Of a stretch of DNA of 64,000 nt, positions 17,987-57,356 are shown piece by piece. Source of the stretch: a virus. A model generated the notes under the pieces. It saw only the letters and a list, made by a program, of their open reading frames with translations. It ran no database searches and was not told the origin of the DNA. A program made the translations under genes and the position numbers. The DNA lies in the IMG/VR virus record IMGVR_UViG_3300011113_000621, positions 35,754 through 99,753 of that record; one strand, given 5' to 3'. How positions within the stretch are numbered: position 1 is the first letter of the stretch; each line of letters opens with the position of its first letter.

Positions 17987-19308
17987 TATCTATTTCGCCC
18001 TTTCGGGAGTAGGTCTGCATCATTTGAAGCATAAAGTTTAGTTGCAAGTTGATATGCTCGATCAAACGGAACGTCTCCGTCACGGACACCACGTAACCAT
18101 GCACCGCGTAATGCTGGAATGATCTCGTAGCCAAGACCTGAGTACTCTGCCATCGAGTAAATTGCATGCTCTGGAGAACCATATTCATCAAGTGACTTTA
18201 ATGCAACCTGCATAAGCTCATGCTGCATCATTGAAGCCTCTGCTCTTGAGGACTTTGGATGTGCCTTTGGCAAGAGATCGTTGTCCTGCTTGTAATTTGG
18301 ATTTGCAGGAGACCCTGAGCGCAACAGCTTTAGAAACGCGTTAACGCGAGCCATTGCCCACTGATCACGAGTCTTGCCTGGTCTATGGCTAGATGAAAAT
18401 GCGCCTGACCCTCTACGATACACTGCCTTTAACATTGGTAACGTTGCCTTGCGTCCTGGCTTTGCGTTCTTGTTATGCTCTACTACCTTTTTACGAAGTG
18501 AATTTTCTGTTTTTTGTGAGAATACAATTTTCTTTCCACCTGAGGCTGATCCCTTTGGATTTTTCTTTGATCCGTAGATGCGATCCTTCTTTGGAGCTTT
18601 GCGTGATGCGGCAAACTCTTGAGCTGCAGATGAGTCCTTAGGAACACAGTTAGGAACCATTCTGCCATTTTTCTTTTTCATTCCAACTTGAACGTATCCG
18701 TCCCAACATGGACCAGCGGCTGCAGTTACGACGCCATCTGGGATAAGTGCAAAGCGGCAGTAACCTTCAGGCTCTACCTGTGCATCAATGATCTTGCACT
18801 CACTGCCACCAACATATAAAATGCAGTTGGCACACTTAACACCAATGTCCTTAATATCATTTTTCTCCGCAGGTTCATATCCTGCCCAAACGCCCGTGTC
18901 ATCAGAGTTAAACTTTCCGTATTTTTGAGTAATTTCAATAAGCGCGTCGGCAAGATCTTGTTCCTCGGCAACGACAATTCCTGCAGCTAAGAGAGCGTCC
19001 TCCTGCTCGATTTGAAATGTCTCATACATCTCATCGTGCGCGTGATCATCATAGTCTTCACTGTCAACGTTAATTGAGTTTATGCGCATTGGGCACATGC
19101 AGGTAATCGGGCAAGGGCACTGACTTGATGGGCAGTTCTCGCAAGAGCAGGAATTTTCGTAACAGTAAGGGCAGTCATTTACTTCTGCTTCTACTGGAAG
19201 ATTTGCTGGCTCTTCTTGCTTGTGTGACTTACCATTTATCTTTGAGTATAGATCCGCCATGCGTAGCAGAAGCTCAGCTGCTTCTTGCTTGGTGTTATCG
19301 TCATGCAT
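17986..19308 (-). CDS. cysteine-rich head-operon protein
   Basis: 440 residues. N-terminal part has a dense cysteine cluster (CPYCYENSCSCENCPSSQCP, then CPITCMCPM) resembling that in the 1584-residue protease. The middle has CANCILYVGGSECKII and YCRFALIPDG, a HiPIP-like four-cysteine pattern. Residues ~290-360 hold the module MLKAVYRRGSGAFSSSHRPG followed by DQWAMARVNAFLKLL, found in many actinophage head proteins. The C-terminal NDADLLPKG echoes NTDLLPIGHP in the next gene. It overlaps the portal by 8 bases and the giant gene by one base, so all three are translationally coupled. Function unknown. Confidence 0.5.
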   Translation of the reverse strand: MHDDNTKQEAAELLLRMADLYSKINGKSHKQEEPANLPVEAEVNDCPYCYENSCSCENCPSSQCPCPITCMCPMRINSINVDSEDYDDHAHDEMYETFQIEQEDALLAAGIVVAEEQDLADALIEITQKYGKFNSDDTGVWAGYEPAEKNDIKDIGVKCANCILYVGGSECKIIDAQVEPEGYCRFALIPDGVVTAAAGPCWDGYVQVGMKKKNGRMVPNCVPKDSSAAQEFAASRKAPKKDRIYGSKKNPKGSASGGKKIVFSQKTENSLRKKVVEHNKNAKPGRKATLPMLKAVYRRGSGAFSSSHRPGKTRDQWAMARVNAFLKLLRSGSPANPNYKQDNDLLPKAHPKSSRAEASMMQHELMQVALKSLDEYGSPEHAIYSMAEYSGLGYEIIPALRGAWLRGVRDGDVPFDRAYQLATKLYASNDADLLPKGRNR

Positions 19309-27852: not shown

Positions 27853-27861
27853 ATTATATCA
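27853..27861 (-). promoter_or_regulatory. TGATATAAT promoter of small RNA, fused to the HDAC stop codon
   Basis: The TGA of this motif is also the stop codon of the 27859-28791 gene. Predicted start point 27845/27846, the first base of the RNA's closing helix. Confidence 0.7.
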
Positions 27862-28791
27862 TGCCCAGGAGAATAAACGAACCTCTTCATAGACCGTACC
27901 TACGACCTGACTCCAAATCTGTGGCGTGTGGTCAAACGGCTGATACCCACCGGCTCCTCCGATTAGGACTCGGCCTTGAGAATAGGTGTTGGCAATTTGG
28001 CCTACGACCTTAGCCGCATACTCATATCCAGGGTAATCGAAGTTAAGTGTTGACAACGGATCTGAAATGTGAGCATCAGCTCCAGTAGCTAACAGCACAA
28101 CATCTGGTTGGATCTTGTGTGACAGCTCTGCAACTTGATCTACCGCATCACGAAATACGTCATCACCGGAGCCTGGATCTAACGCCCAGTTATAAATACC
28201 GAACGAAGGTATATGCCCATCAAGACCTGTGCCTGGAAAAATTGCAGAGTCATGAATCGAGCATGTAATGATATCTCTTGAGCTGGCAAGTAGATTCTCA
28301 ACGCCATCGCCATGATGCGCATCCCAGTCGATGTACATAACCTTCATGCCATTACGATGAAATTCCTTTGCAGCCCAAGCCATGTCGTTGAAAACACAAA
28401 ATCCGGAGCTGTGATTACGTTGAGCATGGTGCTTAGCTCCCTGAGGATTAAAGCCAACCTTCAAGTCGCCCGCAAGCATCTTTTCCGTAAGACGAACTGT
28501 TCCGGCAAACATGTGTAATGCAACCTTACCCTTGTGGGTATCATCCGGTCTCCATTCACCGCAATGCCCAAGGTCTAAAACCTTTGAAACATATTCCTTA
28601 TCGTGAATTGACTCTACGAGAGCTCTGTCCGTATCAAGGATGTCTGGTTTTATGACTACGACGTCGTGGTCTTCCTGCAACATCTGCGTTGCATACTTTG
28701 CACGAACTGGATTAGTTGGATGCTCGAAATCTGAGCTACCAAGTTTCCAGTCAAGATACACGTCATCGTATGAGATGTGTAACTTAGTCAT
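27859..28791 (-). CDS. histone-deacetylase-superfamily deacetylase (AcuC/HDAC-like)
   Basis: 310 residues with the full active site of the arginase-deacetylase fold: His121-His122 in GAKHHAQRN followed by SGFCVFND, the metal ligands in YIDWDAHHGDGVE (Asp155/157, His159), Asp244 in DAHISDPL, and the catalytic Tyr283 in GGAGGYQP. The family removes acetyl groups from lysine side chains, polyamines or small molecules through zinc. It overlaps the phosphatase gene by 8 bases, so the two are made together; host protein acetylation is a plausible target. Substrate unknown. Confidence 0.9.
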   Translation of the reverse strand: MTKLHISYDDVYLDWKLGSSDFEHPTNPVRAKYATQMLQEDHDVVVIKPDILDTDRALVESIHDKEYVSKVLDLGHCGEWRPDDTHKGKVALHMFAGTVRLTEKMLAGDLKVGFNPQGAKHHAQRNHSSGFCVFNDMAWAAKEFHRNGMKVMYIDWDAHHGDGVENLLASSRDIITCSIHDSAIFPGTGLDGHIPSFGIYNWALDPGSGDDVFRDAVDQVAELSHKIQPDVVLLATGADAHISDPLSTLNFDYPGYEYAAKVVGQIANTYSQGRVLIGGAGGYQPFDHTPQIWSQVVGTVYEEVRLFSWA

Positions 28792-39051: not shown

Positions 39052-40848
39052 TTAAGCAGCGTTCTTGCTGCCAATCTTTGTAAGTGCGTTTGCCGCAGCA
39101 GTACCAATTCTGATTGCCGCGTCTGCAGGATCCATGACGTCGGAGAGTAGAACTGTGTTCGTGCCTCGTGTAAGTTCCATTGCATCATGTAGATACGGAC
39201 TCCTACAGAATGGTAACCACAGAACTGCAACGCCTTTGTCATCGCATTCCTTAAGCCAATATTTAGCGCGTTCAGTCTCAACGGAAGTGTAGCGTGCGTC
39301 ACTTACTACTACGAGCAAGCGTGCACCATTTCCATAGAGCAAGTTTAAAGAACCATCAAGTGCCTTAAACGCCTTATCGAACTTCTCAGTTGAATCAGGC
39401 GCAGTGTACACATTGATCTGATCAAGATGTTGCCCTGGCTTTAGAGTAGGAAACACGTCCTGCCCAAAGTAAACCATTGCCGCACGAGCTTGAACTCGAC
39501 GTGCTGCCTCTGACATTGCCCAGGCAGTGACTGCCATAGGGTTCATGGCACTGCCCATTGAACCTGAGATATCAACCATGACACCAATACTTAGTGTTGG
39601 GTCATCAGTGTGCTTGCGCACAGTGCGACGCCATGGATTGGCTACCTGCATTGAACCTTGAGCTTTATACGCAGCATTTTGTACAATGGCACGAGTGCGT
39701 AAACGTCCAGGTGGAAGTATGGACTGAATCTCGTGTTCATCACGCTCACGATACTTTGCTTTCTCAAGCATCTGTGCAATCTTGACTGCGGCAGCTCTTT
39801 CGTTCGCCTCAGGTTTACGAATCTTCTCAAGACGAGAGTTGCTGCCATTAGTGTTGCCTGCCTCAGAAGTATTCTTGAATATCTCTTCTGCGATCTTTTT
39901 GTGCTCACGATCTTGGCGGGCAGCCTTTGAGCGAACTTCTACCTCTTGCTTCCACTCCTCAGATTGCTGTTGGTCCTGAGCATCATCTGCCACAGCGATG
40001 GCAATCATGTCAATCGCATCTTCGATTTCCTTGATGATGTCGCTAATCACGGCTTGGATGATCTGCATATCTGTTGGCTTATCAAGTTCTTCGCCACGCT
40101 CGTTTGCAAGGTCACGTAGAATCTTATCCCACTCACGAGCAAGATTGTATAGAGGCAGAGGGTTAAGCGCATTTTCAATACCTTGGAAACGACGCCATAC
40201 ACTTTGCAACTTTTCAAATGTATCCGCACCTAGAAAGTCAATGACAACTGTGTTGATGCCAACGACATCATCTGCGTCAAGTGAACCTGCGTCAACGCGG
40301 GCACTCAATAGGGCAGCAATTGTTGCGATTGATCTGATGTTATCTGCCTTCTCGATATTCTCATTTATGTCGTGAAGTACAAGGTCAAGTGCACAGGAGC
40401 GAAGAAAGATCCTGTTCATTGGAAAGTTAGTGACGCCAAGGCGCTCAATGCGAGTTTCCTCAAGAGACATGAAGGCATTAAACTCACTAGGAGTCAATTC
40501 CTTACTTGCCATTGACAAGTCCATCTTTGAGTAGCGAGCGTGTAGTGCCTCATGAAAGATGGCACCTGCTGCCTTTGGCCAGTTAAATAGTGAATCGCGA
40601 TCTAAAAGATCACCAATGCTTGAAGGGGAAACTCCCTTACCGAATGATAAGTCTACATTGACCTCAACCTCAGATAGGGCTGGGTTAAAGCATGCAGGGG
40701 TTGGACCTCCTGCGCCTGGTCCTACGTAGGCAACGATGTCTGAGCGTCCTGCCCAGGTGTTTACCAAGGAGCCAATCTGAGCTCCGACCGGCAGCCATTC
40801 GGCTGGGGTCTGTTCCGCGCGGGTCGCGGATACCTTTATATGTCCCAT
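39052..40848 (-). CDS. VWA-domain protein with HExxH (CobT/ViaA-like)
   Basis: 598 residues. N-terminal metallopeptidase-like region with FHEALHARYS (HExxH) near residue 105; a long helical, charged middle; C-terminal VWA domain with the MIDAS motif MVDISGSMGS near 430 and a later YGNGARLLVVVSDARYT strand. Such proteins work with MoxR-family ATPases as metal-dependent chaperones. The cognate ATPase is at 41546-42541. GGAAGGAC precedes the ATG; promoter at 40875-40883. Confidence 0.8.
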   Translation of the reverse strand: MGHIKVSATRAEQTPAEWLPVGAQIGSLVNTWAGRSDIVAYVGPGAGGPTPACFNPALSEVEVNVDLSFGKGVSPSSIGDLLDRDSLFNWPKAAGAIFHEALHARYSKMDLSMASKELTPSEFNAFMSLEETRIERLGVTNFPMNRIFLRSCALDLVLHDINENIEKADNIRSIATIAALLSARVDAGSLDADDVVGINTVVIDFLGADTFEKLQSVWRRFQGIENALNPLPLYNLAREWDKILRDLANERGEELDKPTDMQIIQAVISDIIKEIEDAIDMIAIAVADDAQDQQQSEEWKQEVEVRSKAARQDREHKKIAEEIFKNTSEAGNTNGSNSRLEKIRKPEANERAAAVKIAQMLEKAKYRERDEHEIQSILPPGRLRTRAIVQNAAYKAQGSMQVANPWRRTVRKHTDDPTLSIGVMVDISGSMGSAMNPMAVTAWAMSEAARRVQARAAMVYFGQDVFPTLKPGQHLDQINVYTAPDSTEKFDKAFKALDGSLNLLYGNGARLLVVVSDARYTSVETERAKYWLKECDDKGVAVLWLPFCRSPYLHDAMELTRGTNTVLLSDVMDPADAAIRIGTAAANALTKIGSKNAA

Positions 40849-40874
40849 AGTTTGTCCTTCCGTCAGTAGGTACT

Positions 40875-40883
40875 ATTATATCA
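40875..40883 (-). promoter_or_regulatory. TGATATAAT promoter fused to stop codon
   Basis: TGATATAATAGTACCTACTGACGGAAGGAC; the TGA ends the GIY-YIG gene. Confidence 0.85.
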
Positions 40884-41423
40884 GGTTTTCTGGGACTTTA
40901 GAACCCTTCTTTTTGCCGCGAGAGACATTTTCTTTCTAGTCTCTTCTGAGAAAGTTCTTCCCTTTTGCGACTCAGATATTCTTTTCTTAGTCTCTAAAGA
41001 GTGCTTTCTTCCAACCCACACCTGCCGTAGGTTTTCTAAGTGCTCTGCAGTAAACTGTTTACCAGTGTGAGAAGCACTTAGCTTACTTCTATACTTTGCA
41101 GATCTAACTACGCCTACTGAGCCTTCGCCTCCATCTGTCATATTTGTTAGATCATACCCCTCTAACTTAAATTTTTTAATGTAGTAAACTTCTCTTGTGC
41201 CAGACTCTTCCCAAGACAGATTATTTTCTAAAACTGTAATAACTATGTTTGACCCGATGGAACGTACTTGCCGTATCCAGTTATACACATGGTAAGGCTT
41301 ATCTTTTTTAGCATTCCAAAGATGATCCTTTAAGCGTTTAATCGACTCTTCATGCTTCGATCTTCCTACATACCTGATAACCTCAGGTGAATCACTAGAA
41401 GATAGAGTATAGACGATAGCCAC
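40881..41423 (-). CDS. GIY-YIG homing endonuclease with NUMOD3 repeats
   Basis: 180 residues. N-terminal GIY-YIG domain (VYTLSSSDSPEVIRYVGRSK, later EYYIKK-like and YDLTNMTDGGEG); C-terminal three short DNA-binding NUMOD3 units (SASHTGKQFTAEHLENL, GRKHSLETKKRISESQKG, RTFSEETRKKMS). It is a freestanding selfish endonuclease. GTG start six bases after TATAAT (41430-41435): leaderless, with its own terminator-bounded unit between the ATPase and VWA genes. Confidence 0.88.
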   Translation of the reverse strand: MAIVYTLSSSDSPEVIRYVGRSKHEESIKRLKDHLWNAKKDKPYHVYNWIRQVRSIGSNIVITVLENNLSWEESGTREVYYIKKFKLEGYDLTNMTDGGEGSVGVVRSAKYRSKLSASHTGKQFTAEHLENLRQVWVGRKHSLETKKRISESQKGRTFSEETRKKMSLAAKRRVLKSQKT

Positions 41424-41453
41424 AAATAAATTATATTACAGAATAATTATGGT

Positions 41454-41487
41454 GAGAAGAGCAGGACACCCATGACCTGCTCTTCTC
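41454..41487 (-). terminator. hairpin terminator after ATPase gene
   Basis: GAGAAGAGCAGG/CCTGCTCTTCTC 12-bp stem; followed by ACCATAATTATTC on the minus strand. Between it and the ATPase stop are two more small stems (CCGAGC/GCTCGG, CCCAG/CTGGG). Confidence 0.75.
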
Positions 41488-41545
41488 CACGCGCCCAGGG
41501 GATTAGTCTGGGTCTATCCGAGCAACGACGAGCTCGGAAGGTTTA

Positions 41546-42541
41546 TTAGATTTTGGCCGGACGGCATTCCTCGCCGTAGACTCTGGTAAAGACGTCTGCG
41601 ACTACTGGCCTGTCTAACTCAGGTGCAGCGGCAATTATGTTCGCGATTGCGAACTTAGTGCCGAAGGTTTTAGAGATATCGCGGAACGCGAGTAGCTCAC
41701 GCATTTGTGGTGCCCAACCGCATTCACCAGATTGTTGGCGACGTGATAGGTTTTGAGCAACTACAACTATCTGTTGTGGCGCTCCAAGCTTTTTAGCAAG
41801 CATGAAGTCAGTTGACATCTCAACTTGAAGTACGAAGCGAGATAGTAAAGCTTCTGAAAGTCTTACTCCAGGAGCGTTTGGATTTGTAGCAGCGATGACA
41901 TAGAAGCCTTCCTTGGCTTTGATGGTACCGCGCTCTGGATTGGCAGTGATAGTTAACTCATTAGTTCCATCCATGAGTGAATAGACACCTGAGAGAACCT
42001 TTGGATCGATGAGACCAATCTCATCAATGAACAGTGGGCGACCTTCCTCGGCAGCTTTTACAAGTGGACCATCTTCCCAGGTGAAACCACCTGAAGGAGT
42101 TTGGACGTATCCACCAATGAAGTCTGCAAGTTCAGCGTCACCTGTACCAAGTACAGAGATCACATTTGGAAATGCTGCCTGCACAAGCGCAGTCTTACCA
42201 CAACCAGGAGCACCATAGAGCAAGATGAATTGCATCTCTTGATGCGCCTTACGTAGAACTTGCACGTCATCGTGCTCGCCCCACTTGCGGGCATGGTACT
42301 TCTCGCCATTAGGGCGCATGTATGTCTCGTCACCGACGAGTGCATCTGCTGACACTACAGGGACCACCTTCTTGACTGTTGCACGAACGGCAACCTTACC
42401 CTGAGGTGTAACCATTGATTTAAGTTCAGAGGACACATCTTCATTGAGATGCTGACCTGCTGCCTTTAAGAATAGATCGCTAAGTTTAGGTGACGCACCT
42501 GGCGCCATTGAATCTAACTTATCTAATACTACTGTTGACAT
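41546..42541 (-). CDS. MoxR/CobS-type AAA+ ATPase
   Basis: 331 residues. Walker A YGAPGCGKTALVQ near residue 115, Walker B RPLFIDEIGLID, sensor-1 IAATNPNAP and arginine-finger region LLSRFVLQVEM. MoxR-family rings drive remodelling of VWA partner proteins; the partner is encoded next on the strand past the endonuclease. GACGAAAGGA precedes the ATG. Confidence 0.88.
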   Translation of the reverse strand: MSTVVLDKLDSMAPGASPKLSDLFLKAAGQHLNEDVSSELKSMVTPQGKVAVRATVKKVVPVVSADALVGDETYMRPNGEKYHARKWGEHDDVQVLRKAHQEMQFILLYGAPGCGKTALVQAAFPNVISVLGTGDAELADFIGGYVQTPSGGFTWEDGPLVKAAEEGRPLFIDEIGLIDPKVLSGVYSLMDGTNELTITANPERGTIKAKEGFYVIAATNPNAPGVRLSEALLSRFVLQVEMSTDFMLAKKLGAPQQIVVVAQNLSRRQQSGECGWAPQMRELLAFRDISKTFGTKFAIANIIAAAPELDRPVVADVFTRVYGEECRPAKI

Positions 42542-45834: not shown

Positions 45835-45955
45835 TTGCTCTAGCCGTTAGGCGAATGTGCTCTTCACGAGTTGCAGCAAGCTCAACGTCATTGATAAGTT
45901 TAGCCGCATGTTCACGCATTAGAAATAGGGTCTCCTCAAGCTGGGTTATCGTCAT
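45773..45955 (-). CDS. small coiled-coil protein
   Basis: 60 residues, one long heptad helix (LEETLFLMREHAAKLINDVE, NEAETLVNELEKIL). Overlaps both the small-terminase-like gene (20 bases) and the endolysin. Could be a lysis regulator; unknown. Confidence 0.6.
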   Translation of the reverse strand: MTITQLEETLFLMREHAAKLINDVELAATREEHIRLTARANEAETLVNELEKILLTHYAA

Positions 45956-46868
45956 CGCCTGTGATCTCCTGTGCGTCCTCTATATTTGAGTTGTCACTTG
46001 CCGTCTCTGGGTCTAACGCTCGATCAACGATCTCTCCTGCAACGATAAGAGCGCCCGCCTTTAATCGCTCGAGTCTCTCGGCGATAATCTCAGACGCTGG
46101 CCTGTCGTTAGTTAAAACCGTCGCGTCTAACTCTATACCGCCGCGGACTCCCGCGCGATCTAGAATCTCCGTAGATGCTTTTAATCTTACTGGCTCACTG
46201 GTGGCGTATTGCATTAACTCCTCGAGAGCATCAACCGCATATGGAGCGGATTGCACCAGCTTCTTACGAGCACGCTCAATCTCGTCACTCGGTCTCTTGG
46301 CGACATGACGTAGGTGAACACGACACATGCCGGAGTCCTTGGGGCGTCCGCTTGTCCAGAGCATGCAGCGTATCCCGTCATCTTTAATATACGTGCAGCG
46401 AGTTGGAAGCGCGGTCGGTCTTCTCTTCTCGGTGGCAATTGGGTTATCCTGCTCGGCCATCCACATCTTGGTGGCACCAAGGACCCAGGTAGGAACAAGG
46501 TTATCCGAGGCAGGCTCTGCAATTAGGTCCATGCCTGAAAGGTAATCTGAGTTGATGTTGCCTGGATCAACCATGATCGGTTTCTTCTCCGCTAGGGAGA
46601 GAAGGCGACGCTGCTTAACCATGTCCTTTGATCTCGCCATGATGAGACCAGTGGGTACGCCGTTGGATGCATAGACCGTATCCCAGCCAAGTTGGTTGGA
46701 TCTTAGGATGGATCTGTTTTCAAAGGTATCCTCACAAACACCGCGCTCTGACTCGATGATTCCAAGTGAGCCGAGATCCGGGCGAAGGTTTACACCTTCC
46801 TCAAGAATTAAAAAGTCAGGAGCGTCTTCGCTATCGCTACTCTGTGATGCAAGTTCTCTGCTGCTCAT
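45936..46868 (-). CDS. small terminase-like protein
   Basis: 310 residues. Residues ~150-190 hold a Cys/His set (RCTYIKDDGIRCMLW, MCRVHLRHV). Residues ~205-260 (RKKLVQSAPYAVDALEELMQ, VRLKASTEILDRAGVRGGIE) match the HTH-bearing segment of actinophage small terminases, which bind the packaging site and deliver it to TerL. It is ~22 kb from the large subunit, which is unusual. Leaderless start: TACAAT, six bases, ATG. Confidence 0.65.
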   Translation of the reverse strand: MSSRELASQSSDSEDAPDFLILEEGVNLRPDLGSLGIIESERGVCEDTFENRSILRSNQLGWDTVYASNGVPTGLIMARSKDMVKQRRLLSLAEKKPIMVDPGNINSDYLSGMDLIAEPASDNLVPTWVLGATKMWMAEQDNPIATEKRRPTALPTRCTYIKDDGIRCMLWTSGRPKDSGMCRVHLRHVAKRPSDEIERARKKLVQSAPYAVDALEELMQYATSEPVRLKASTEILDRAGVRGGIELDATVLTNDRPASEIIAERLERLKAGALIVAGEIVDRALDPETASDNSNIEDAQEITGDDDNPA

Positions 46869-46900
46869 AGTTCAATTGTACATATGAGTTAAAAAAGAGA

Positions 46901-46941
46901 CAGTCTCCAACTCAGGGGGAGAGGACTAGAGCTGGAGACTG
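46901..46941 (-). terminator. intrinsic terminator after holin gene
   Basis: CAGTCTCCAGCTC/GAGTTGGAGACTG stem, then TCTCTTTTTT on the minus strand. Confidence 0.9.
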
Positions 46942-46961
46942 CCTGTTCTAGATTTTGAGGC

Positions 46962-47756: not shown

Positions 47757-48462
47757 CGCGCAACACCGTCCCCTTATGATGAAGAACCTTTACCTGAGGA
47801 TCCAGCATTATCTTGAATCCGGCCTCCTTAGCATTTTCACACCAGGCATAGTCCTCACCCATGTTTACCTCAAAACCAATTTCCTCCTGCCAAAGCATGT
47901 GGCGAATCTTGAACCAGGGGCGAGGCATCTTTTCAAAGACTCCCTGCTTCATTGCAACAAACCCAAAGCCAACGCCGCCGACCTCGATTGGATCCCAGTC
48001 AATGAGTAGATCTTTCTTGTTGGTCTTTTGTGGTCGACCAAACTTGTCTGGAAAGTTCACCGCGACCGTCCCATTAGGGTGCGTCTGGTAGACTCCAGAG
48101 ATGATGTCATGCTCTGACTCGTAGATCTGTAAGAACTGTTCAGGCGTCCACTCAATATCTGAGTCAATCCAAAAGATCTTCCTGTAGGTGTATTTTCCGC
48201 CGCCAATGTCTCTCGTCTTCCAGTTATGTCCAAAGGAATCAGTTGCAACCATCTCACGAGTGCTAGGGATAAACGAACCTGATTTATGAAGCAGGTGATA
48301 TGAAATCCCCTTCTCATTGAGAACCTTGGTCGTCTCAACCAGACTTGTCACATACTCGGGGACAAAGGAAAATGCAGGTGTCGCAATCAGAACGTCATAG
48401 TGAACTACGTCCGCCTTGACTATGGGAAGCTCATTTATCTGACTCACACTGATACTCTGCAC
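47749..48462 (-). CDS. GT-A type glycosyltransferase
   Basis: 237 residues. VLIATPAFSFVPEYVTSLVE opens a Rossmann-like fold; FWIDSDIEWTPEQF holds the DxD metal motif (Asp100, Asp102); GEDYAWCENAKEAGFKIMLD and HHKG give the acceptor-side residues. It should transfer a sugar from a nucleotide-sugar to DNA, protein or a surface structure. Phage glycosyltransferases may modify virion proteins or shield DNA. Overlaps the upstream gene by 19 bases. Confidence 0.8.
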   Translation of the reverse strand: MQSISVSQINELPIVKADVVHYDVLIATPAFSFVPEYVTSLVETTKVLNEKGISYHLLHKSGSFIPSTREMVATDSFGHNWKTRDIGGGKYTYRKIFWIDSDIEWTPEQFLQIYESEHDIISGVYQTHPNGTVAVNFPDKFGRPQKTNKKDLLIDWDPIEVGGVGFGFVAMKQGVFEKMPRPWFKIRHMLWQEEIGFEVNMGEDYAWCENAKEAGFKIMLDPQVKVLHHKGTVLRVE

Positions 48463-48908
48463 TCATCACAAAGCAACGCGTCAAACCCAGTTGCATAATC
48501 CGCACTAAAGCCATTTTGAGTCACAGGCACGGGAGTAACCCGTTTATCCGAGGAACCGCAACGTGCACACTCTAATGAAACAATCCACTCAACCTTACGA
48601 CCAGCCTCAAGGCAGGCAGAGATCCCACGGGTTAATGCATGCATCGGTCCTGCGCCCTCAGTCTTACGTAGGAACATTCTTGTGTCCTCTGCCTCAAGGA
48701 CAGGTGTGATCTTCTTGCAAGGGCACATCATGGCACTGGGCTTACACACAAGTATTCCATTGTAGGTTGTGTGCTTGCTTACCGCATGACCACAGACGCA
48801 AACCCGTCTATCCCTCTTGGTCTTACTCTTGCGTGTAAGTTTTTGATCTACCTCTCGAGCTTCCTCGACAGATATTCCCATTGCCTCAAGGGCGTTTTTC
48901 TTAGACAC
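48444..48908 (-). CDS. zinc-rich hypothetical protein
   Basis: 154 residues from GTG at 48908. CVCGHAVSKHT, MCPCKK, CARCGSSDK and CDEC provide several CxC/CxxC pairs. The GTG overlaps the upstream gene's stop by eight bases. Function unknown. Confidence 0.6.
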   Translation of the reverse strand: MSKKNALEAMGISVEEAREVDQKLTRKSKTKRDRRVCVCGHAVSKHTTYNGILVCKPSAMMCPCKKITPVLEAEDTRMFLRKTEGAGPMHALTRGISACLEAGRKVEWIVSLECARCGSSDKRVTPVPVTQNGFSADYATGFDALLCDECRVSV

Positions 48909-49080
48909 TAAACCACATCCAGCCAAATGAAACCCAGCAAAATGAAAGCATAGCCGCGATGGCATAAAGCATTCTACTCATCATTTTGTTCTCGTCTTTG
49001 ACTGGCCAAGCATAGAAAAATAGAATTCCAGCCGCGATAGTTCCTAGTACCAAAGCAATCAAAACTCCAGTATCTCTCAT
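48901..49080 (-). CDS. 59-residue two-helix membrane protein
   Basis: MRDTGVLIALVLGTIAAGIL then FFYAWPVKDENK and MLYAIAAMLSFCWVSFGWMW: two hydrophobic helices with a short charged turn. GAGAGG precedes the ATG; TATAAT at 49122-49127 is the likely -10. Holin-like topology. Confidence 0.65.
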   Translation of the reverse strand: MRDTGVLIALVLGTIAAGILFFYAWPVKDENKMMSRMLYAIAAMLSFCWVSFGWMWFSV

Positions 49081-49127: not shown

Positions 49128-49184
49128 TAACTATTTCTACTGAAAAGTACAACCATACTCAACCATAGTTCAACTATAATTCAT

Positions 49185-49271
49185 AATTCTTTAATACTCA
49201 ACTATATTTATCGTCGCCCCTAGGAGAAACTCTATACGCGTATACTAAATATAGTAGAGTATTAAAGAATT
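49185..49271. repeat. 26-bp inverted repeat (cruciform-capable)
   Basis: Arms 49185-49210 and 49246-49271 differ at one position; both contain the TATAGTTGA-type iteron. Loop 35 bases with ATACGCGTAT. Confidence 0.85.
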
Positions 49272-49300
49272 AAGATATACAGAATATTATAAATATGGGG

Positions 49301-49409
49301 CTTACTAGGTCATTTTGAACTTTTTGAACTACTTTTTTGACCTAGTATGTCTCCAATAGCCTACTAGGTCTCTTTGACGTTTTCGAACTACTTTTCTCAC
49401 CTAGTATGT
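49301..49409. repeat. two ~50-bp direct repeats with inverted ends
   Basis: Unit 1 TACTAGGTCATTTTGAAC...TGACCTAGTATGTC; unit 2 TACTAGGTCTCTTTGACG...TCACCTAGTATGTC; each a protein-binding-site-like palindrome. Confidence 0.8.
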
Positions 49410-49607
49410 CAAGAAGGTGCCGTCTCCTTCGTCACCTAATAATAAACCCCGAGATCTTCATTTATATAATAGCAATATAGTTGAGTATAGTTGACTATTA
49501 TAAGTGGTTGAGCATTATAAATATACAAACAATTATATCTTTTTTCGCCCTAAAATCACCGCTCTCAAAGCCTCATCACGCTCCTATTTACAGGTTAAGA
49601 TTTCATC

Positions 49608-49856
49608 ATGTTATCGCACGGAGTACCAAACTACTCGCCGCATGCTCAGGCGATGTTACGCCTTACAGCTTGCTCTACTACTCTGCGCTCTCTAATTCTC
49701 AACCTCGAGGATCCTCAGGACGAGGACCTTCGCGTTGATCTTCTCATATCCTGTGACGAGGTAATAAATCAGGCAAATCAGCTCTACCTTCAAATCTCAG
49801 AGATGACTTGGAAAGAGCTTGACCGTCGTAATCACCCCTCGTCTGACATCGCTTAA
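49608..49856 (+). CDS. helical hypothetical protein
   Basis: 82 residues, helical and acidic (HAQAMLRLTACSTTLRSLIL, DEDLRVDLLISCDEVINQAN). First gene of the rightward block. TAAGAT ends six bases before the ATG and no ribosome site is present, so it is probably leaderless. Confidence 0.6.
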   Translation: MLSHGVPNYSPHAQAMLRLTACSTTLRSLILNLEDPQDEDLRVDLLISCDEVINQANQLYLQISEMTWKELDRRNHPSSDIA

Positions 49857-49894: not shown

Positions 49895-50812
49895 ATGGCA
49901 AGGCTACTTGGCACAGCTGCATCTCACGGTAGCGGTAATCGCCAAACTATAGATGTAACCTACCTCGTCTTAGCAGGTGGCGGTGGCGGTGGAGGCTCGT
50001 ATCCTAGCTACGGTAGCATGGGTGGCGGCGGAGCTGGCGGTTACAGAACGTCTTTTGGAAGTGGAAACATCTCTGGCGGAAACTCCGCAGTTGAATCTCC
50101 AGCGCCTATCAATAAGGGTGCCAACTATACAGTAACAGTTGGTGCAGCAGGTCCAGGCGCAGGAGCAGGTGGCGGTGGTGGAACTCCTGGAAATAACTCC
50201 GTGTTTGGTTCTATCACATCTCTTGGTGGAGCAACAGTTGGTGGTAATGGTGGTTCAGGTGGCGGTGGACTTTGGGCTGGTGGAGTAGACAATGGAAGTA
50301 ACTGGCCAACAGGATTTGGAAATGGAACTACAGGTCAAGGTTCTAACGGCGGCAATGGACGAAACGGTTACGGTTGCGCTGGTGCAGGCGGAGGTGGCGG
50401 TGGTGCAGGCTCAGTAGGTGGTGACGCATCTTGCGGAAGTGGCGGAGCTGGTGGTTCAGGTTTAGCAAATTCAATTACAGGTACCTCAGTAACTCGTGCA
50501 GCGGGCGGAGGCGGTGGAGCATGCTCCGGAGGAGCTGGTGGCTCTAGCGGTCTTGGCGGTGCTGGTGGCTCTGGTGGAAATGGTGGCAATGCATCAACAG
50601 TGAACACTGGCTCAGGTGGCGGTGGCGGTGGAAACTGTGGCAGCGGAACTCAGTCAGGTGGAAATGGAAGTTCAGGTGTCGTTATTCTTCGTTGGCCAAC
50701 TGCCTCTGCAACAATTACAATTGGCGCTGGCCTGACAGGTTCTACTAGCACGTCTGGATCTGATACAATAGCGACTATTACTTCTGGCACGGGAACGGTG
50801 AGCTTCGCATAA
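49895..50812 (+). CDS. glycine-rich tail tip/fibre protein
   Basis: 305 residues. DVTYLVLAGGGGGGGSYPSY, then long Gly/Ser/Asn-rich runs with regularly spaced YTVTVGAAG and hydrophobic turns, and a short SSGVVILRWP and beta-rich end. Poly-glycine sandwich domains like this form adhesin tips in T-even-like and many marine phages. TAGAAT, six bases, ATG: leaderless. Its gene is paired with the small protein that follows (stop/ATG overlap TAATG). Confidence 0.72.
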   Translation: MARLLGTAASHGSGNRQTIDVTYLVLAGGGGGGGSYPSYGSMGGGGAGGYRTSFGSGNISGGNSAVESPAPINKGANYTVTVGAAGPGAGAGGGGGTPGNNSVFGSITSLGGATVGGNGGSGGGGLWAGGVDNGSNWPTGFGNGTTGQGSNGGNGRNGYGCAGAGGGGGGAGSVGGDASCGSGGAGGSGLANSITGTSVTRAAGGGGGACSGGAGGSSGLGGAGGSGGNGGNASTVNTGSGGGGGGNCGSGTQSGGNGSSGVVILRWPTASATITIGAGLTGSTSTSGSDTIATITSGTGTVSFA

Positions 50813-51168
50813 TGGCACATTACGCATTTTTAGATAACAACAATATTGTTACTGAAGTAATTACTGGCATTGATGAAGACCAGCTAATTGAAGGGAAGTC
50901 TCCTGAAGTTTGGTACGGAGAATTTAGAAATCAACGCTGTGTAAGAACTTCTTACAACAACAATATTCGTAAAAACTTTGCTGGCGTAGGATACACATAT
51001 GATGAAGAAAAAGACGCATTCATTCCACCAAAACCATTTAATTCTTGGACGCTAAACGAAGACACATATTGGTGGGAACCTCCCGTCCCGTATCCATTAG
51101 ACGCCGAGATGGCGCATATCTGGGACGAAAACACCCTTAGCTGGGTTAAGCAATCTCTTTCTCTTTAA
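50812..51168 (+). CDS. small conserved phage protein (MAHYA family), copy 1
   Basis: 118 residues: HYAFLDNNNIVTEVITGIDE, then CVRTSYNNNIRKNFAGVGYT and FIPPKPFNSWTLNEDTYWWE. The motif set is widespread in marine cyanophages and pelagiphages next to tail fibre genes; possibly a tail-tip or fibre-assembly protein. 57024-57356 is a second copy. Confidence 0.7.
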   Translation: MAHYAFLDNNNIVTEVITGIDEDQLIEGKSPEVWYGEFRNQRCVRTSYNNNIRKNFAGVGYTYDEEKDAFIPPKPFNSWTLNEDTYWWEPPVPYPLDAEMAHIWDENTLSWVKQSLSL

Positions 51169-55863: not shown

Positions 55864-57024
55864 ATGCGTCTTATAGGTAACTCAAGCTCAGGTGGTAAAG
55901 GTATTGCTCCAGTAGCTCCTACAATTGGAACGGCCACCGTAACAAACTCAACAACAGTATCTTTGACTTTTACGGCTCCCTTCTCTAAACTTCCAATTAC
56001 CTCTTATACAGTAACAAGCAGTCCAAGCATTGCTCTTTCGACTTCTGGCACGTCATCTCCAGTAACTGTAACTGGAACATTTGCTGCTAATCAGGCGTAC
56101 ACATTTACAATAGCAGCAGTTAACGCGAATGGAACTTCAGCTGCGTCTTCAGCAAGTAATTCCGTAAGCCCACTGGTTTCAAACCCACCTTCTAGCATAG
56201 AAGTTTTAGTCGTAGGCGGTGGCGGAGGTGGCGGTAGCGGTGATGCAACCTACGGCCCACCCGCTGGCGGTGGCGGAGGTGCAGGTGGATTTAGATTTAA
56301 TTCATCATTTGCTGTTACGTCTGGGACTAATTACACAGTAGGTATTGGTGGTGGAGGCAGCCGCGGTACTTTTGGAAGTGATGGAAGTAATGGCGGTGGA
56401 AGTAGCTTTGGTTCTTACTCTTGCAGCGGCGGTGGCGGTGGAGGCCTTGCAAACGGAAGAGCAAATGGAAAAAGCGGAGGATCAGGTGGCGGTGGTGGAA
56501 ATAACGGTGGGTCCGGTAATGCTGGAGGATTTACTCCAGTCGAAGGATATAGTGGTGGAACTCAGTCAGTAGTTCAAGGATCAGACGCTGGCGGCGGTGG
56601 CGGCGCTGGCGGAAGTGGATCTGCTGGACAATATAACGCTGGAAATGGTCTAGGTGGCAATGGCGGAGGTGGGGCTTCTAGCTCTATTTCTGGCTCATCA
56701 GTAACCTACGCAGGTGGCGGTGGCGGTGGCGGCGCATTTGGTGGCGGTGGCGGTGGAGGTGGCGGCGGAGGCAACGGAAGTACATGGCAGCCATACTCCC
56801 CTTCAGGCGGAGGTGCTGGAGGCTACGGCGGTGGCGGCGGCGGTGGCTCTAATCAAAGTCAAAGCTGGGGAGCTAATGGTGGATCTGGAGTAGTTATTAT
56901 TGCCTATTCAAATATCTATGACGCCCCGACAATAGCAGCTGGGCTATCTTATGACCAGCCAAGTCGCAGTGGCTACAGGGTGTATAGATTCAACAGCGGC
57001 AGCGGAAATGTGAGTTGGTCATAA
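55864..57024 (+). CDS. glycine-rich tail tip protein with N-terminal FN3-like domain
   Basis: 386 residues. Residues ~15-110 resemble fibronectin type III (PVAPTIGTATVTNSTTVSLT, SYTVTSSPSIALSTSG, YTFTIAAVNANGTSAAS). Then SIEVLVVGGGGGGGSGDATY and poly-glycine sandwich repeats to the end. TAAAAT, six bases, ATG: leaderless. Same architecture as 49895-50812 plus FN3; the two are likely duplicates that diverged. Confidence 0.72.
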   Translation: MRLIGNSSSGGKGIAPVAPTIGTATVTNSTTVSLTFTAPFSKLPITSYTVTSSPSIALSTSGTSSPVTVTGTFAANQAYTFTIAAVNANGTSAASSASNSVSPLVSNPPSSIEVLVVGGGGGGGSGDATYGPPAGGGGGAGGFRFNSSFAVTSGTNYTVGIGGGGSRGTFGSDGSNGGGSSFGSYSCSGGGGGGLANGRANGKSGGSGGGGGNNGGSGNAGGFTPVEGYSGGTQSVVQGSDAGGGGGAGGSGSAGQYNAGNGLGGNGGGGASSSISGSSVTYAGGGGGGGAFGGGGGGGGGGGNGSTWQPYSPSGGGAGGYGGGGGGGSNQSQSWGANGGSGVVIIAYSNIYDAPTIAAGLSYDQPSRSGYRVYRFNSGSGNVSWS

Positions 57025-57356
57025 TGGCGCACTATGCATTACTAAATGAAAATAACGTTGTAGTAAATGTTATTAAAGGCAGAGATGAAAACGAAACTAT
57101 TGAAGGAATCTCCAACTGGGAACAGTATTATGGTGAGTTTTACAACGCGACATGTAAAAGAACATCCTACAACTCTGCTGCGGGAAAAAGAATAAACCCT
57201 GAAACAAATGAAACGGTAGACCAACCAGGATATAGAAAAAACTATGCTGGGATTGGATTTACATATGATTTTGAAAGAGATGCTTTTATTCCTCCAAAAC
57301 CAGAAGGCGACTGGGTCTTAAATGAAGATACCTGTCTCTGGGAACCTGCTGTTTAA
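57024..57356 (+). CDS. small conserved phage protein (MAHYA family), copy 2
   Basis: 110 residues, HYALLNENNVVVNVIKGRDE, CKRTSYNSAAGKR, RKNYAGIGFTYDFERDAFIP and PKPEGDWVLNEDTCLWEP; clearly related to 50812-51168 and in the same TAATG-coupled position behind a glycine-rich gene. Confidence 0.72.
   Translation: MAHYALLNENNVVVNVIKGRDENETIEGISNWEQYYGEFYNATCKRTSYNSAAGKRINPETNETVDQPGYRKNYAGIGFTYDFERDAFIPPKPEGDWVLNEDTCLWEPAV

Follow-up and report, generated by a model that had tools for sequence, protein, structure and literature searches.

The window analysed here comes from a freshwater actinobacterial phage and makes up the final 64 kb of a viral record 99,753 bp long. By protein, its closest named relative is Actinomycetia phage DSL-LC01, a lake phage assembled from a metagenome. 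Leftward genes end at about 49080 and a rightward gene begins at 49608, and in the non-coding gap between them lies a composite element of about 350 bases (49150-49494). On its left is a gene for a double zinc-ribbon protein, here called zn (48444-48908, minus strand; the start codon is uncertain, with an alternative extent of 48444-48965), and further out is a TerS-like gene of 310 aa (45936-46868, minus strand). Just upstream of the TerS-like gene, at 46880-46945 on the minus strand and near the terminal repeat start predicted below, is a strong GC-rich hairpin with a T-run. On the far side of the element is an 82-aa gene (49608-49856, plus strand), which is conserved in only 18 close relatives. 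A preliminary description of this DNA had placed the repeats in a switch region between leftward and rightward genes. The switch is present in the window, but it is not essential, since the far-side gene faces the element in many relatives.

From the zn side outward, the element starts with the iterons CAACCATA, TCAACCATA and TCAACTATA, spaced 9-11 bp apart (49150-49178, plus strand). They are followed by an inverted repeat supported by covariation, also given on the plus strand. Its left arm (49184-49210) holds another copy of iteron TCAACTATA at 49198, its loop (49211-49245) has a conserved (G)CCCC side, a TACGCGTA side and an alternating purine-pyrimidine tract, TATACGCGTATAC, at the 3' end, and its right arm occupies 49246-49272. 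Next come an AT-rich spacer, in which 21 of 25 bases are A or T (49273-49297), and two dyad units on the plus strand (49303-49347 and 49362-49406), each made of TACTAGGT, 29 pyrimidine-rich nucleotides and ACCTAGTA. Two inverted iterons, TATAGTTGA, lie 10 bp apart on the far side (49476-49494, minus strand). Across relatives the order from the zn side outward is iterons, hairpin, AT-rich spacer and one to three dyad units.

The repeats in the gap are real and, combined, are well beyond chance. TCAACYATA occurs six times in the 64 kb where 1.0 is expected, a number reached by none of 100 shuffles, and five of the six fall in the gap (49159, 49170 and 49198 on the plus strand, 49476 and 49486 on the minus strand). 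The sites do lie in opposite orientations, and the 10-11 bp phasing described for them holds true of neighbouring pairs: the left spacings are 11 and 28 bp and the right spacing is 10 bp. Among 59 relatives, tandem 6-mers on the zn side peak at a lag of 10 (61 versus 2.1 in shuffles), with further signal at 11, 12 and 20, and repeats on the spacer side occur at lags of 8-9 bp, far above shuffles. The iteron sequence varies between lineages and the repeat lags persist.

The dyad pattern TACTAGGT-N29-ACCTAGTA has two copies in the gap, with none expected from shuffles, and the region can also be written as two 52-nt repeats that are 85% identical and spaced by 59 bp, the distance between the starts of the two units. 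The paired palindromic units of about 50 bp described earlier were found again as these 45-bp units. Adjacent units also have mutually complementary inner arms, so a set of four alternating half-sites is the more fitting description. All 28 consensus-fitting units in relatives are 44 or 45 bp long, and their interior is 73% pyrimidine on the top strand. Within the arms, the outer TACTA/TAGTA hardly varies, and the bases further in change together. The fixed spacing and free interior suggest protein contacts at a fixed geometry. Scanning viral contigs with the unit pattern gave 17 matches, six of them with a hairpin (five already in the set and one new, L145); the other 11 lack a hairpin and look like chance.

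The inverted repeat has 27-nt arms that form 26 pairs with one A.A mismatch around a 35-nt loop, which bears out the earlier report of a hairpin with 26-bp arms (25/26 matching). Folded as single-stranded DNA it reaches z = -6.1, and no shuffle folds equally well; folded as RNA it reaches a z of about -5.5 to -5.8 on either strand. In A1, changes on both sides were seen at 23 of the 26 stem pairs (covariation 0.475 versus 0.155 shuffled), and 84% of cells pair, compared with 35-42% once one arm is slid against the other. In the set of 67 non-redundant hairpins, 72% of pairs are Watson-Crick, compared with 28-31% after sliding. Stem sequences are wholly different between lineages with complementarity retained, and the size and loop core are shared: total length is 86-91 nt in 66 of the 67, and the loop, whose left part is rich in C, shows an RCRCG(T/A) core in 60 of them. 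The alternating purine-pyrimidine run in the loop averages 14.8 versus 5.6 in shuffles, and the longest is 27 nt. Only selection for complementarity, or some process that corrects the arms, can maintain such pairing. Judged from these comparisons, it is structure, rather than sequence, that is under selection in the hairpin. A protelomerase-type site was also considered, and was dropped, since the palindrome is interrupted by a conserved loop of 35 nt that is not itself palindromic.

In three relatives (L049, L056 and L060) the loop alone is inverted and the flanking iterons and units stay in place, so loop orientation is free. These inversions suggest recombination or template switching between the arms. 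In four others (L236, L238, L239 and L184) the best match is likewise on the opposite strand.

We think it very probable, from the pattern of substitutions, that the element acts at the level of DNA and not RNA. An RNA made from one strand would make G.U pairs exceed A.C mismatches; over the 67 hairpins G.T (90) and A.C (85) are about equal, so selection looks to be on DNA. Inversion of the loop between fixed flanks is also easier to reconcile with a DNA site than with a single RNA fold running through the region.

The distribution of the element was followed with a structure-based hairpin model, R1, which was used to search relatives; 80 relatives had been gathered by a scan with the neighbouring glycosyltransferase-like protein, and many of them have a long hairpin in the equivalent gap. 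R1 matched a single locus in each of 22 of the 24 long records, matched DSL-LC01 at 18125-18212, and also matched L145, the record obtained solely through the dyad-unit pattern. Freshwater actinophages carry the composite element in a single copy per genome, and the 67 non-redundant hairpins include that of DSL-LC01. R1 had no match in Pumpernickel, GMA2, S-TIM5, GodonK, RedRock, Racecar, Zooman, Big4, Cece or A3Wally, and blastn of the region's DNA against named phages had none either. Rfam searches at gathering and relaxed thresholds returned only chance miRNA-type hairpins and no bacterial or phage family, and literature searches found no description of the element. The element, previously undescribed, is conserved among the same neighbouring genes in dozens of related phages. 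We class it provisionally as an origin-type cis element, pending function, and assign it to no known family.

The element is always upstream (on the 5' side) of zn, which lies on the iteron side and is transcribed away from it. Every hairpin locus in the first set (54/54, weak and redundant matches counted) adjoins a zn homologue, and 21 loci that have the glycosyltransferase gene and lack zn have no hairpin in the stretch. The full zn alignment was too diverse for a collection scan, and a subset of it was used on viral contigs. With the zn protein alone as query, another 45 loci came up, 36 of them with a hairpin at E < 0.01 and three more at E < 1; the subset search of bacterial genomes found nothing. 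In one relative, G018, the element and zn occur together at a distance from the glycosyltransferase gene. The zn structure was predicted with high confidence (pLDDT 90), and no relative that would tell its function was found in Pfam, in the PDB by sequence or fold, or in BFVD, nor was any known initiator matched. The nearest conserved partners of the element are zn and the TerS-like gene, not the three regulators named earlier as candidate binders (the 44148, 31397 and 57745 products). In Microbacterium phage Cece, the gap upstream of the zn homologue (L158:3695-3765) contains nested 13-15-bp inverted repeats of CACTATCCA units, which are possibly a diverged counterpart that R1 misses.

With the anatomy, conservation, structural covariation, rigid spacing, single copy and linkage to zn and the TerS-like gene all observed, we tentatively read the element as a DNA-level nucleoprotein assembly site, most likely the phage's origin of replication. 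The iterons, spacer, hairpin and single copy seem best explained by an origin: the direct repeats are tandem and phased, and an AT-rich segment that could serve for unwinding lies next to the hairpin, as at iteron-type origins an AT-rich segment accompanies the iterons. A protein of the phage, perhaps the product of the adjacent zn gene, would load cooperatively on the helically phased iterons flanking the inverted repeat. The resulting strain would concentrate in the AT-rich spacer and in the loop with its alternating purines and pyrimidines, so that the duplex opens or the hairpin extrudes. The exposed hairpin, together with the pyrimidine-rich strand of the rigid dyad units, might take up helicase and primase machinery, and replication would initiate. 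The preliminary description had also proposed an origin here. What stands of that proposal is the conserved, single-copy phased array with its iterons, hairpin and AT-rich spacer; what does not is an origin signal in GC skew, the test it had suggested. Third-position skew follows coding direction and does not switch at the element in six relatives of about 130 kb, the one exception among 12 tests being an AT-skew (AT3) case in G018. Being driven by coding direction, GC or AT skew at third codon positions is uninformative as an origin test. Several findings count against an origin: no recognised initiator gene lies beside the element, the helicase, exonuclease and annealing genes are far off on the contig, the distance to the TerS-like gene is kept better than expected for a plain origin, and isolated Microbacterium phages with zn and TerS homologues have no match to the hairpin model.

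An unlikely but serious alternative is a genome-terminus and packaging site, or a concatemer-processing site, just outside the start of a long terminal repeat, where nicking or extrusion of the hairpin would lead to duplication of the repeat or to the start of packaging. The TerS-like gene lies 1.8-3.9 kb from the element in 59 of 59 loci (median 2.5 kb), on the same side and in the same strand order, and is 58-71% identical across the family. Its distance from the element has a CV of 0.18, compared with 0.99 for the element-zn distance, and the two do not covary (slope -0.10). This means compensating gene shuffles, but there are few independent layouts and the compensation may reflect ancestry. 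In Microbacterium and Arthrobacter phages the homologue of the TerS-like gene is gene 1, which in the Microbacterium phages stands at the physical genome end; one homologue bears the annotation terminase small subunit. In Big4 and Pumpernickel, the terminal repeats (17,669 and 19,963 bp) start about 61 bp upstream of this gene. Since gene 1 lies inside these 17.7- to 20-kb repeats, the family may have long terminal repeats, and by homology that of the window phage would start near 46930. That predicted terminus is about 2.4 kb off the element, however, and about 2.3 kb off the hairpin, and Big4 and Pumpernickel have the terminus without a match to the element. Contig ends among relatives do not cluster at the element either, and the TerS identity itself rests on a weak PHROG match, the one annotation and position, the predicted fold being poor.

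Transcription control is another serious but unlikely alternative. Here the iterons, hairpin and dyads would be operator or activator sites that act on the zn-TerS operon's promoter and, in certain phages, on that of a divergent operon as well, with the hairpin perhaps a supercoil-driven cruciform switch. The element always heads the zn operon, the first gene is usually 60-250 bp away, and sigma-70-like sites are mildly enriched toward zn (47% versus 27% score 9 or more). This enrichment is weak, though, and none is seen on the other side. Ordinary operators also do not account for a 26-bp stem that stays complementary as its sequence is replaced, and they leave the loop inversion unexplained.

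The two least likely readings are a structured RNA and neutral correction of the arms. A structured non-coding RNA or mRNA leader would fit the strong covarying stem and the stable RNA folds, but is very improbable given the missing wobble asymmetry on both strands, the chance nature of the Rfam matches, the freely flipping loop and the lack of a terminator; an intrinsic terminator, a GC-rich stem and then a T-run, was looked for and is not present at the element. Hardly any weight falls on the idea of an inverted repeat kept perfect by template-switch correction in replication, beside ordinary operators: quasi-palindrome correction can hold arms complementary without selection and predicts loop inversions, but arm length, loop length, loop core and position are constant across deep divergence.

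Returning to the origin reading, the closest known systems are iteron-type theta origins (phage lambda ori, P1 oriR and RepA plasmids), which share tandem iterons, an AT-rich segment, a non-coding location and one locus per genome. They differ in that the element's iterons are much shorter (8-12 bp lag), its central hairpin covaries and has a purine-pyrimidine loop, its dyad units are rigid at 44-45 bp, and no initiator is recognised. Three further likenesses are analogies only. In herpesvirus oriL and oriS the arms of an inverted repeat contain initiator boxes, much as an iteron lies in the arm here, but there is no sequence relation, the host domain is another, and the element's loop is alternating purine-pyrimidine, not AT-rich. 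In T7 concatemers, hairpin ends have been proposed to act in terminal-repeat duplication and packaging, and there too an inverted repeat sits on the right-end side of the junction, beyond the terminal repeat; the T7 distance is about 0.2 kb, whereas the element is about 2.4 kb from a repeat whose terminus in the window phage is only predicted. The hairpin promoters of N4 and the single-strand promoters (Frpo) of the F plasmid are DNA hairpins recognised as structure; the element differs in size, loop and flanking iterons, and no polymerase candidate was identified. Among actinophages, cluster A mycobacteriophages have RNA-based and RepA prophage origins, replication loci that likewise lie in non-coding regions (PMC7157519), but R1 does not match RedRock and no parABS was found in the window phage. 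The RepA_N origin of PLE also has semi-palindromic iterons in a non-coding region (PMC7145576), but no RepA_N gene was found beside the element.

It is conceivable, if rather doubtful, that these phages carry a new class of replication or maturation element. Such an element would have a hairpin conserved in shape, not sequence, built around a Z-prone core in which purines and pyrimidines alternate. Ruler-like dyads of 45 bp would accompany the hairpin, a zinc-ribbon protein would be the partner, and the element's position near the terminase gene may tie the start of replication to the genome end. Phages of freshwater Actinobacteria are very common, and literature searches turned up neither a replication origin nor a packaging signal described for the group. 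The element offers one defined 350-bp target per genome, the strictly linked orphan zn protein is a candidate binding partner, and R1 is a searchable model. For a dsDNA phage it is unusual to find a hairpin that covariation maintains and that shows no RNA signature, and the element makes it possible to test whether hairpins, as cruciforms or in single strands, have a role at the origins or termini of phages.

Other genes in the window were noted in passing. A histone-deacetylase-fold protein is encoded at 27859-28791 on the minus strand (PF00850, E 6e-54). CobT-like and CobS-like AAA ATPase genes, conserved in actinophages, occupy 39052-42541 on the same strand, with a homing-endonuclease-like gene between them (40881-41423). 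On the plus strand, a gene pair (phrog_2295 and phrog_7759) that looks like a tail-fibre or accessory module is duplicated at 49895-51168 and 55864-57356, and a further phrog_2295 copy is found in a relative (L088:141-1040).
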